Below, piece by piece: positions 2,290 through 29,204 of a stretch of 45,052 bases of DNA. The position numbers and the translations under genes are program-made. The notes under the pieces are model-generated. The model searched no databases. It worked only from the letters and a program-made list of their open reading frames with translations, and was not told where the DNA came from. The first letter of the stretch is position 1; every line of letters begins with the position of its first letter. The stretch is taken from positions 1 to 45,052 of IMG/VR virus record IMGVR_UViG_3300049927_000020, one strand, 5' to 3'. Source of the DNA: a virus.

Positions 2290-2299
2290 GGGAGATCGT

Positions 2300-3139
2300 A
2301 TGCTTATTCTTAATGCTACGACCGATACGATTTCCCTTATTACCAAGCAAGCATGCGATCTAGATATCACCACACATTTTACTGATAGAAATAAAAGTAC
2401 TGGCGTAGTCGGCCTTTCAGATCGACAACTCGCACATCCAACCACGGCCACCACTACGACTATTGTGGCAGCTCCTGGAGGTTCGGATGTGCGGCGAGTC
2501 CAGTCCATCACAGTTCGAAATGCGCACGCTACTGATAGCGTGGATATCATCATCCAGTATAATGCTAACGGAACCCTGTACGAACTCTACAATACACGCT
2601 TGGCGTTTGGAGATGTCGCCTCCTTTCGCGAAAAAACAGGTTTTGGGCTCTACTGCCTGAATCCTAAAATGTCTGCCACGTTTGTTGCAAAAGAACTCTT
2701 TGCCGGAGATTTAGCGACTGTAACCTCGACGGCATCCGGTGTGGCTCCAGTCTGGAAATTTGAAGTTCCGCCCCATACTGCTACCAAGAAATTTTGTTGG
2801 GAGGCGTACATTTACGTCTCGTCGGCCACCACGACAACGGGCGGACAATTTGGCATTGGCCCAGTATTGAGTGTGCAGCAATCCGGTGGTATCGGAACCG
2901 CTGTTGTCGGCGTAACTACGTCCACTCTAATGAGTGCCTGTAGTCCCGCCAGCTCACCAACGGCTTCGTTGGCTTCTGGAACTTCGCCTACAACGCCGGG
3001 ACTTCAGATTTTGACTGGCTATTTTGAACTAGCTGCTAACTCCAGTCCTGTGGCCGTAATCTTTAGTTTTAACTCGGAAGTGGCCGCAAGCTCTGTCACT
3101 TTGCTTGACGGGTCGTCCTTATGTGTCTGGGAAGTGTAG
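2300..3139 (+). CDS. Beta-rich virion-type protein, paralog B
   Basis: The 279-aa protein is a clear paralog of the gene before it: the same start (MLILNATTDTISLIT), the same D-R-N--TG-VGLSDR and YELY blocks, then a different C-terminal domain. I chose ATG 2300, eight bases after GGGAG, because it lines up with the start of the paralog. An in-frame upstream GTG at 2249 lies inside the preceding gene. The C-domain contains VSSATTTTGGQFGI, close to ISNATTTGAQFGV in paralog A, so the two share a second-domain fold as well, only more diverged. It ends S-L-C-V-W-E-V, matching the Trp-containing end of A. Function unknown; a tandem duplication followed by divergence is the simplest origin. Confidence 0.8.
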   Translation: MLILNATTDTISLITKQACDLDITTHFTDRNKSTGVVGLSDRQLAHPTTATTTTIVAAPGGSDVRRVQSITVRNAHATDSVDIIIQYNANGTLYELYNTRLAFGDVASFREKTGFGLYCLNPKMSATFVAKELFAGDLATVTSTASGVAPVWKFEVPPHTATKKFCWEAYIYVSSATTTTGGQFGIGPVLSVQQSGGIGTAVVGVTTSTLMSACSPASSPTASLASGTSPTTPGLQILTGYFELAANSSPVAVIFSFNSEVAASSVTLLDGSSLCVWEV

Positions 3140-3146
3140 GTAAACC

Positions 3147-3920
3147 ATGTCCGATGGATGGTTTGATCCAATAGTCAGACCAGCCGACTGGTTTGGCGAC
3201 ACTGACTCCGATATATGGTGGGACGACGATATGCTTGATGGAGGGATAGACCCTTCAAGACTTGTGCAAATCTCGTTTTCAGAGTTCCAAATCCCTCTCG
3301 TCCCACACCTGGCAAAGATTTCCTTTGCCGAGTTTCAGATCCCACTCGCACCGCGCAAGGCGAAAATATCGTTCACGGAATTCCAGGTTCCCAATGCTCA
3401 ACGCAAGGTTGAGGTCTCATTCAGTGAGCTGCAAATTCCGCTAGCTCCTCGACGTGCAGAGATTTCCTTTACGGAGCTGGAAGTTCCTATCCACGACCGT
3501 TTAGTCAAGGTCTCATTCTCCGAGTTGGAAGTACCGATCCACGACAGGCTGGCTAAGATCAGCTTCGCCGAGGTCGAAGTTCCAATTCACGACCGGCGTG
3601 CGGAGATTTCATTCACTGAGTTGGAGATTCCAAACACTCCAACATTTGTGAAACTCTCCTTTGCCGAATTTGAAATTCCGTCCATCGAACGACTTGCTCA
3701 AGTCTCGTTCACGGAACTCCAGATTCCCAATGCTCCTCGACGAGCAGAGGTTTCGTTCACTGAACTCGAAGTTCCAATCCGACAACGCTTGGCTCAGGTC
3801 TCCTTTGCCGAACTCGAAACACTCAGCCCACCGCCTGTGGTCACTCACATGACGACGTTGAAGCTGTTGCGAACCGTGCATAGAGCCTACATCTCCCATG
3901 CGGAGTTAGAAGTCCCATAA
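3147..3920 (+). CDS. 16-residue tandem-repeat protein
   Basis: The 257-aa protein has a 38-residue acidic, Trp-rich head (WFDPIV..WFGD..IWWDDD) followed by 12 in-register repeats of 16 residues (residues 39-230). The consensus is (L/R)A-x-(I/V)SF(T/A/S)E(L/F)(E/Q)(I/V)P-x-x-x-R. One degenerate unit ends the protein after a 15-residue spacer (TLKLLRTV). Alternating hydrophobic and polar residues followed by Pro suggest one beta-strand plus a turn per unit. The protein could be an extended solenoid or a chain of strands that add to a partner. The start follows GTAGGTAAACC, seven bases after the previous stop. Location among virion genes suggests a structural or host-contact role. I do not recognise a named family. 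Confidence 0.85.
   Translation: MSDGWFDPIVRPADWFGDTDSDIWWDDDMLDGGIDPSRLVQISFSEFQIPLVPHLAKISFAEFQIPLAPRKAKISFTEFQVPNAQRKVEVSFSELQIPLAPRRAEISFTELEVPIHDRLVKVSFSELEVPIHDRLAKISFAEVEVPIHDRRAEISFTELEIPNTPTFVKLSFAEFEIPSIERLAQVSFTELQIPNAPRRAEVSFTELEVPIRQRLAQVSFAELETLSPPPVVTHMTTLKLLRTVHRAYISHAELEVP
3261..3836 (+). repeat. Twelve 48-bp coding repeats
   Basis: Each unit codes for 16 residues with the core S-F-x-E-x-x-(I/V)-P. The DNA of the units differs more than the protein (several Ser, Leu and Glu codons are used), so the array is old or selected at the protein level rather than freshly duplicated. Confidence 0.9.
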
Positions 3921-3961: not shown

Positions 3962-4870
3962 ATGGCTAATGAACAAGTAGCACCGGCAGCAGGGGCAGCT
4001 CCAGTAGTGGAAGCTCCTGCTGCCGGTGCTGAACCGTTACGTGTTGATACGAATGTGGGTTCCCCGAATCCCGCTGGCGCGGGGGAACGCTCCGCTCCTC
4101 TCATGGCTCGCCCAGATTGGGTACCCGAGAAGTTCTTCAAGGATGGCATCATCGACTACAAGGGCATCGCCACTTCCTATGGTGAGTTGGAGAAGTCCAA
4201 GTCCAAAACGGTAGACCCAAAGGCCGGGGAGCCAACTCCCAAGGCCGAGTCTAAAGTCGAAGACAAACCAATCTCCGTCAGTGTTCCTGGTATTGAACAA
4301 GCCCGTGTGGACGCCTACTCCGCAGAGATCATGAAGGACGGGAAACTGTCCGACGCATCCTACGCAGAGCTGGCGGGAAAAGGCTACGGTAAAGCTACAG
4401 TAGACGTGTATCTCGCAGGGCTCACCCGCGATGCTGCCGTCTCGCAGGCCGTGACCGACTCGCAAGTCGCTGCTACGCATATCAAGGAGATCACGGACGG
4501 TATTGGAGGACAATCTGCGTTGACAGAGATGTTGACGTGGGCGAAGTCCAATCTCAGTGAAGCGGACCTGAAAGTCTACAACGACTCAGTGTCCTCGAAC
4601 GATCCAGCCAAGGTAAAGATGGCCGTCAATGGCTTGCATCACACCTTCACAGAGCTGCATGGAAAGTCCCCTAACTATCTGGAAGGGGAACGCTTGCAGA
4701 ACACTCCTGGTGGGGTTGCCCCATACGAATCGGAAGATGCCGTGACGAAGGACATAGCGACATGGGATTACAAGAACAACCAGGAGTTCCGCGATAAAGT
4801 CGCAGCTCGCCTGCGCGTATCTCCTAACGTATTCGCCCGCAGCAGAGATACCACGAAAGTTCAAAGATAA
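3962..4870 (+). CDS. Capsid scaffolding protein (T7 gp9-like)
   Basis: The 302-aa protein matches the T7 gp9 class in position, size (gp9 is 307 aa) and design. The N-terminus is low-complexity and Ala/Pro-rich. A conserved W-V-P-E-K-F-F-K-D-G-x-I-D-Y-K motif follows at about residue 50. The middle is acidic and helical, and a basic C-terminus (ARLRVSPNVFARSRD) should bind the capsid shell. Scaffolds of this family guide assembly of the prohead from major capsid protein and leave before DNA fills it. The start follows a small hairpin (GCTGTC/GACAGC, 3932-3949) and a GGAGGGG site. It lies upstream of the capsid gene as expected, but a holin gene separates the two. Confidence 0.9.
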   Translation: MANEQVAPAAGAAPVVEAPAAGAEPLRVDTNVGSPNPAGAGERSAPLMARPDWVPEKFFKDGIIDYKGIATSYGELEKSKSKTVDPKAGEPTPKAESKVEDKPISVSVPGIEQARVDAYSAEIMKDGKLSDASYAELAGKGYGKATVDVYLAGLTRDAAVSQAVTDSQVAATHIKEITDGIGGQSALTEMLTWAKSNLSEADLKVYNDSVSSNDPAKVKMAVNGLHHTFTELHGKSPNYLEGERLQNTPGGVAPYESEDAVTKDIATWDYKNNQEFRDKVAARLRVSPNVFARSRDTTKVQR

Positions 4871-5731: not shown

Positions 5732-6712
5732 ATGTCCGACGCGACAGTTTCCCGTTTGGGGCAGCTCGACGGTTCAGGGTCTACACTGACTCAGAACACC
5801 GCACTGTTCCTGAAGGTATTCTCGGGCGAAGTCCTCGAAGCCTTCAAAGAAGTCAACGTAGCGATGGAACGCTCGCTTGTCCGCACCATCTCCAGCGGAA
5901 AGTCTGCTCAGTTCCCCGCCACCTGGAAAGCGGCTGCTCACTACCACACTCCCGGTGCGGAGATCGTGGGCCAAGTGATCAAGCACAACGAACGAATCAT
6001 CAACATCGACGCGCTCTTGCTCGCGGATGCCTTCATCGCCAGCATCGACGAAGCGATGAACCACTATGACGTTCGCGCTCCCTACAAGAACCAGCTCGGC
6101 TATGCGCTTTCGAACACCGCTGACAAGTTCTTGCTCCAACTCATGGTCCTTGCAGCTCGCGCCAGCGCCACGGTCTCAGGTGGAGACGGCGGAAGCGAAC
6201 TGACGAACAGCGACTATGACACTTCCGCCAACACGCTCGTCACCGGGATCTTCGATTCGGCGACAGCCTTGGACGAGAAGTCCGTACCTGACGATGGCCA
6301 GCGCAGCGGATTCTTCTCCTCAGAGTCCTACCACATGCTGATCCAATCGGATCGTGCAGTGAACCGTGACTGGAACGCGCAGGAGTCAAACGGCTCCTAC
6401 AAGAGCGGGAAGATCATGGAAGTCAGTGGCATCCAGATCGTGAAATCAAATCACGTTCCAAGCACTGACCTCAGCGCCATCACTGTTCCGTTGGTGACTG
6501 ACACGAATACCAACAACACCTACGAAGGAGACTTCTCCAACACCGTAGGCGTTGTGACGCACAAGACAGCGGTTGGTACCGTGAAGCTCCTCGATGTCGC
6601 CTTCGAAATGGAATACGACATCCGCAGACAGGGCACGCTCATGGTTGCGAAGATGGCAGTAGGCCACGGCATCCTGCGTCCTGAGTGCGCAGTCGAGCTG
6701 AACGTCGCGTAA
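5732..6712 (+). CDS. Major capsid protein (T7 gp10A-like)
   Basis: The 326-aa protein is the HK97-fold shell subunit of T7-like phages (T7 gp10A is 345 aa). Recognisable family stretches are the N-arm followed by A-L-F-L-K-V-F-S-G-E-V-L-x-A-F, R-T-I-S-S-G-K-S-A-Q-F-P, the axial region D-D-G-Q-R-S-G-F-F-S, and the C-terminal L-M-V-A-K-M-A-V-G-H-G-I-L-R-P-E. The gene has a long structured leader and is followed at once by a hairpin, a branched RNA element and a strong terminator. That resembles T7, where the main late terminator follows gene 10. I see no sign of the slippery site used by T7 to make a 10B form. Confidence 0.95.
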   Translation: MSDATVSRLGQLDGSGSTLTQNTALFLKVFSGEVLEAFKEVNVAMERSLVRTISSGKSAQFPATWKAAAHYHTPGAEIVGQVIKHNERIINIDALLLADAFIASIDEAMNHYDVRAPYKNQLGYALSNTADKFLLQLMVLAARASATVSGGDGGSELTNSDYDTSANTLVTGIFDSATALDEKSVPDDGQRSGFFSSESYHMLIQSDRAVNRDWNAQESNGSYKSGKIMEVSGIQIVKSNHVPSTDLSAITVPLVTDTNTNNTYEGDFSNTVGVVTHKTAVGTVKLLDVAFEMEYDIRRQGTLMVAKMAVGHGILRPECAVELNVA

Positions 6713-28924: not shown

Positions 28925-29204
28925 GACAAATGAGGCAGAAAATGAGTGCAGGCGTGGCGGAACTGGTATACGCAAGGGTCTTAAAAACCCTTACCTCTCA
29001 AGGGTTTGCGAGTTCGACTCTCGTCGCCTGCACCAGCGGGAACGGTCTTAAAATCCCCACGGTTCTGCATGCACATGTAGGGGAGTCACGTAACTGGTTG
29101 TTATCCAACTGGTTCAGTGGCTCTCCTTTGTTTTGTCCGCACTCATCCACATGTGGATCGCGTCAGAGCGTGAGGCAAAAGTTGAGGCAATGGTTTGCCT
29201 CAAA
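28910..29204. other. attP: Predicted phage attachment site (attP) with arm motifs
   Basis: Copies of TTGAGGCAAA lie on both sides of a tRNA-Leu gene. On the left are TTGAGGCAAA (28910), TTGAGACAAA (28921) and ATGAGGCAGA (28930); on the right GTGAGGCAAA (29170), TTGAGGCAAT (29182) and a perfect reverse copy (29194-29203), the last two forming an inverted repeat. The left copies are 9-11 bases apart, one DNA turn. This is the layout of integrase arm sites around a core, here the tRNA gene, with the integrase gene next door. The exact crossover cannot be read from one sequence. Confidence 0.7.
28948..29035 (+). tRNA. tRNA-Leu (anticodon UAA), complete with CCA
   Basis: The 88 bases fold as a class II tRNA: acceptor GCAGGCG/CGCCTGC, D arm with GGTATACGC, anticodon stem AGGGT/ACCCT around CTTAAAA (anticodon TAA), a short variable arm and T arm GCGAG-TTCGACT-CTCGT. 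It ends ACCA, with CCA in the DNA. It lies just after the integrase. P-SSP7 and relatives carry only part of a host tRNA-Leu as their attachment site, whereas here the gene looks whole. It could serve as the attP core, supply leucine tRNA, or both. Confidence 0.92.

Follow-up and report, generated by a model that had tools for sequence, protein, structure and literature searches.

A phage array of detached jelly-roll strands, paired with a truncated domain, as a putative polyvalent donor-strand scaffold

As judged from sequence comparison, the phage gene at 3,147-3,920 encodes thirteen copies of one β-strand, and that strand is the C-terminal strand missing from the domain encoded at 994-1,437 of the same window (the whole 45,052-nucleotide stretch analysed here, from IMG/VR virus record IMGVR_UViG_3300049927_000020). 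We read the array protein as a polyvalent donor-strand scaffold for this truncated partner, and put the probability of that reading at about 0.77, because the two genes co-occur, homologues of the partner carry the unit in cis, AlphaFold2 models of a cis form (L213) and of a natural fusion (L152) place the unit accordingly, partner and unit co-vary, and the linkers between units are variable. Each unit (xxVS[FW]xExExP) would enter one truncated partner as its missing last strand and so complete the jelly roll, and up to 13 copies of the partner could be threaded on the array chain like beads, separated by short linkers such as NAPRR and IHDRL. A Trp/Asp-rich head would anchor the chain to the phage particle. 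The CBM-like fold of the partner may bind glycans or other surface polymers, and the array might thereby set the valency of a virion appendage. We think it somewhat probable that the pair forms a split-domain display system that is natural and widespread among uncultured phages, with repeat number setting the number of domains per chain.

The array protein (3,147-3,920, + strand; 257 aa) begins with the Trp/Asp-rich head (aa 1-38; 3,147-3,260, +), a probable anchor, whose profile matches four T7-like array proteins only (E 1e-17 to 1e-21). There follow twelve putative 16-residue donor-strand units in exact register (aa 39-230; 3,261-3,836, +), a 15-residue spacer, VVTHMTTLKLLRTVH (aa 231-245; 3,837-3,881, +), whose counterpart in relatives lies around MVHLRAK, and a terminal unit 13, RAYISHAELEVP (3,882-3,917, +), with the stop codon immediately after it. 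The strands start at residues 42, 58, 74, 90, 106, 122, 138, 154, 170, 186, 202, 218, and 249, giving eleven steps of exactly 16 and one of 31, and this bears out an earlier sequence-only reading of twelve periodic units plus a last unit after a spacer. The twelve periodic units all have S2, F3, and E5, and 11/12 have P9. Identity between units by codon position is 0.60/0.74/0.35, different codons are used at 63% of aligned equal residues, and even the best unit pair in the window array is only 75% identical as DNA. From the codon-position identities and synonymous codon differences, the units are old and selected as protein rather than recent DNA duplications, and the earlier view that the period is under selection agrees with this. 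Among full-length homologues, the nearest (L090, L111, and L127) share the head, the spacer, and a terminal unit placed likewise before the stop codon, with five units before the spacer. Position 3 of the terminal unit is His (ISHAELEVP) in the window (3,882-3,917), L090, and L111, but Phe or Trp in the other units; the target of this His-bearing unit may be something other than the partner.

The unit is not confined to the window. A degenerate two-unit DNA pattern retrieved 53 virus contigs, and 54 distinct arrays from environmental phages of several kinds are built of the unit, whose consensus is RRAQVSWAELEVPNAP. Short spacings between units equal 16 residues in 320 of 362 cases (51 arrays), the others being 14, 15, 17, 18, 19, or 20; for arrays retrieved without the 16-spaced DNA pattern, the spacing is 16 in 55/62. 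The 16-residue period is therefore not rigid among relatives. Arrays mostly hold 4-25 units in the counted set. The sequence-only reading had proposed a comparison of unit number between relatives, and held that absence of the protein, random change in unit number, and a broken frame would speak against it; the number does vary, from 4 to 25, but it varies in frame and the partner gene accompanies the array. The context of the array also differs, since it stands after a short head or forms the C-terminal part of larger multi-domain proteins (L094, L119, L130, and L132). One such protein of 1049 residues (L094:3430-6579 and L109:5848-8997, both on the - strand) has two arrays about 550 residues apart, and the region between them gives the impression of a β-helix or pectate-lyase type sequence.

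Neither Pfam nor PHROGs contains a family for the array (the best match, to an unnamed PHROG, has E 0.009), in keeping with the original remark that it belongs to no named family, and a related-locus search queried with the whole array gave no match. Searches of isolate phages by tblastn with the array, the unit consensus, the partner, and a cis homologue found no match, although it is doubtful how sensitive they are to queries that are short and repetitive, as not even chance matches were returned at E<=10. The strict unit pattern matched only once among 84,980 bacterial and archaeal species genomes, in Arsenicicoccus (L135), and this match was rejected as out of frame and due to chance. Within the limits of the library searched, neither this repeat nor a phage system of the kind was found in the open literature. 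The principle of strand complementation is known; the protein system is absent from every library searched.

The window is a T7-like virus record, with a Gp10A-like major capsid protein (5,732-6,712, +; PF21703, E 1.6e-78) and a T7-type scaffold/capsid assembly protein (3,962-4,870, +; PF05396, E 3.8e-7; phrog_1052, E 2e-32). Upstream of the partner module lies a glycosyltransferase-like protein (156-722) that matches PF00535 with E 0.007, short of the cut-off, and phrog_1574, of unknown function, with E 1.7e-18. A tRNA-Leu (anticodon taa; 28,948-29,035) is the sole tRNA found in the window. The partner gene (994-1,437, +) encodes 147 aa, and its homologues near arrays, its cis homologues, and AlphaFold2 and Foldseek analysis of a cis homologue together suggest a CBM-like jelly roll that stops just before the last strand (..SDYTDLYLRFVANKP, then the stop codon). 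Pfam gave no meaningful match for any of 42 members of the partner family, the best E against PHROGs and Pfam profiles was 0.01, for one member each, and PDB sequences gave no match to the partner, FNI included.

The partner gene recurs beside arrays in phages that mostly have no other similarity to the window, and on these comparisons the association is very strong. After removal of duplicates, a partner homologue lies upstream on the same strand for 39/39 arrays preceded by 3 kb or more of sequence, and the array is downstream of the partner in all 41 unique pairs, at a distance of 48-2982 nt (median 1280). In two contigs that apparently have no partner (L084 and L124), the contig is cut inside the partner gene. 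Both pairing and gene order are strict in the contigs compared. The phages with the pair differ in kind, some being T7-like and others having different terminases, head protease, or tape measure protein. Partner and array are both absent from 80 loci retrieved via the capsid protein (L002-L081), and since these capsid-protein relatives have neither gene, the pair is an accessory module. Between partner and array in the window are a gene for a 277-aa protein (1,456-2,289, +) and its paralogue (35% identity) at 2,297-3,139 (+; ATG at 2,297, with the ORF listing starting at TTG 2,249). This order is kept in L151, L153, and L155, and as the two genes are seen with these three arrays but with no others, they are probably outside the core of the system. 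The four-gene block is downstream of the scaffold gene in L153 and L155 and upstream of it in the window, and from its position on opposite sides of that gene it appears to move as a block.

How does the partner domain end when no array is present? A search with the partner alignment retrieved 79 loci. Stand-alone partners end in ..ITDYxDLYLRFVANKP, whereas 12 distant homologues run on for 10-15 residues past this usual end and then have one unit, as in L213 (..DLRLRFDITAIQNSQTSGQVSWAELEVP); three or four of these cis forms (L195, L203, L209, and L210) have a divergent unit. Arrays are absent from the loci of all cis forms (0/12) but accompany 41 of 65 truncated domains (Fisher p=3e-5), and if loci with few or single nearby units are counted, the figures are 0/12 and 47/65 (p=2e-6). 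For the other 18 of the 65 truncated domains no unit was found within the available locus sequence; some of these are near a contig edge (L141, L148, L166, and L193) and others are away from it (L177, L187, L197, L201, L196, and others), and these domains count against the donor-strand reading. By alignment with the 12 cis homologues, the array-associated partners are without a strand that the fold normally contains. The sequence-only reading had raised a strand-donating polymer as one possibility, and the cis homologues, in which the unit is predicted to be the last strand, favour that suggestion, with the upstream phage protein (994-1,437 in the window) as the likely acceptor. Its other suggestion, a binding scaffold for a host surface target, finds no support as far as a direct target of the array itself is concerned.

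To see where the unit lies in the folded domain, we turn to the structure predictions. The AlphaFold2 model of the cis form L213, built with 42 aligned sequences, has a mean pLDDT of 94.9 and a pTM of 0.90, and the unit is its last strand (residues 137-146). Foldseek with this model retrieved jelly rolls of CBM16 (2zex, E 1.3e-4), CBM4, CBM6, and CBM36, with 3p6b, 1uxz, and 7ay3 also among the matches. By predicted fold, the partner family is a CBM-like jelly roll, and this fold is what it has in common with the CBM families; the matches have E of about 1e-4 to 1e-3, a TM score of only about 0.5, and 8-18% identity, with no Pfam or PDB sequence match, and sugar binding is putative. Foldseek also retrieved phage tail proteins or proteins of unknown function, including Pas29 of phiAsp2 (TM 0.74), which is annotated as a possible receptor-recognising protein. 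Pas29 was rejected as a member of the system: it is a structural neighbour that lacks the unit, and its profile match is only marginal.

In a natural fusion, L152, one protein contains a truncated partner at residues 240-382 and, 224 residues further on, a single unit. The alignment for its model consisted of truncated partners only, and the unit was absent from every other row. In the AlphaFold2 model the partner has pLDDT of 95-98, the middle region mostly 30-50, and the last block about 90, and the unit is modelled as strand 378-387, which spans the ten unit positions that are also strand in the cis model. We infer that the unit docks on the L152 partner, because no other part of the model is well folded, and from confidence and strand extent it probably occupies the slot that the cis strand fills. 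Together with L213, the model supports completion of the partner fold by the unit, and on sequence and modelling the donor-strand mechanism is well supported; display of array and partner on the virion would be a further step.

Could the array instead fold on its own, as a β-solenoid, whose consecutive units pile up in a single continuous coil, or as a β-meander rod, with the partner merely a nearby virion protein? A β-solenoid had been among the first suggestions, the strand-turn pattern of the window array has an exact 16-residue period, and ice nucleation proteins are proposed to form a 16-residue β-solenoid (PMC9418140). We nevertheless consider self-folding improbable: a single unit is predicted to be the last jelly-roll strand in 12 homologous proteins, the linkers vary in length, and a self-sufficient rod leaves the strict co-occurrence with a truncated partner without explanation. 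AlphaFold2 has itself been reported to produce confident false solenoids for repeats (PMC11795689). Slightly better placed, but still unlikely, is the idea that the units add a strand outside an already complete partner in the style of a tandem β-zipper; β-strand addition is a known binding mode of disordered chains of short motifs (PMC4412574), but in cis the strand is integral to the domain, and the partner ends just before it. The least probable reading, which we regard as very doubtful, makes the array protein a non-virion assembly factor, a chaperone that keeps partner subunits until their delivery to the particle. The array and partner genes do adjoin scaffold and capsid genes, and pilus systems use donor strands as chaperones. 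However, in many phages the array ends a larger multi-domain protein, which looks like display, and up to 25 units would be odd in a chaperone.

Partner and unit also co-vary, in favour of array units as donor strands for the partner. Partner distances and unit-profile distances are correlated (Mantel r=0.38, p=0.0005; 0.26 among distant pairs), and shared ancestry must be part of this signal. An early loop carries an insert in the long partners L184, L186, and L189 (151-152 aa), and the arrays found with them show Ala rather than Trp or Phe at position 3; it is possible that loop insert and altered motif are a compensating pair of changes. The insert subtype (L184, L186, L187, and L189) has ..PGSIGAGDD.. 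in the early loop, and its arrays read VSA[FV]E in place of VS[WF]AE; none was found for L187.

The predicted arrangement is reminiscent of donor-strand complementation and exchange in chaperone-usher pili and TasA fibres, where another chain supplies the strand that a β-sandwich lacks and so completes it (PMC9674648, PMC10104325). In pili and TasA each subunit has one donor strand, for its neighbour, whereas the phage donors would be 4-25 similar strands on a separate chain, and the CBM-like partner fold differs from the incomplete Ig-like pilin with its N-terminal donor extension in the chaperone-usher system. No pilin, usher, or chaperone gene was matched among the neighbouring proteins scanned. 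Fibronectin-binding adhesins offer a second parallel, the tandem β-zipper, in which disordered repeated motifs bind successive β domains by strand addition (PMC4412574). The predicted phage complex would likewise have a chain of repeated short motifs binding successive β domains; the β-zipper acceptors are complete, linked modules of host fibronectin, whereas the phage acceptors are separate single-domain proteins without the strand. On FNI modules, the adhesin motifs attach at the E-strand edge.

Engineered tandem GFP11 arrays with GFP1-10 (PMC4802074) come close in logic, as a tandem missing strand recruits many truncated domains, which is what we predict for the phage array; that system is a man-made β-barrel, whereas the phage split is natural. 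None of the pili, the β-zipper, or the GFP11 arrays is a natural many-donor chain for a separately encoded truncated domain. T4 Hoc-type capsid fibres are strings of β-sandwich domains on the phage head that have been called an environment-sensing device (PMC10385173). The phage array would similarly display a string of β-sandwich domains, but Hoc domains are covalently joined in one chain, and each bead of the putative phage string would be a protein of its own, mounted on an array of strands.

Phage proteins commonly contain short tandem repeats, most of which lack an explanation. In this case the repeat gains a concrete, testable meaning, with the unit as the detached strand of a domain encoded next door. 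If this is true, the pair would be the first equivalent of split-GFP tandem arrays known to us from nature, multivalent display on the virion could be achieved by repeat number alone, a change in unit number would be a quick genetic means of tuning appendage valency, and protein engineering would gain a new non-covalent scaffolding pair. A rule suggested for other orphan phage repeats is to seek a neighbour without the strand. Further short-period arrays, built on other motifs, are frequent in phages with the partner domain (L203:8808-, L204:9344-, L205:4279-, L209:5950-, L196:8705-, and L201:460-), and these may be strand arrays for other domains. The array of L203 has a 21-aa period (SFSQVVISAPVIVENSLKGQP), those of L204 and L205 have a 14-aa period (TSKSAYIRGKNTGV), and that of L209 has a 20-aa period (LNLTIYPDGLASTTALGSPQ).
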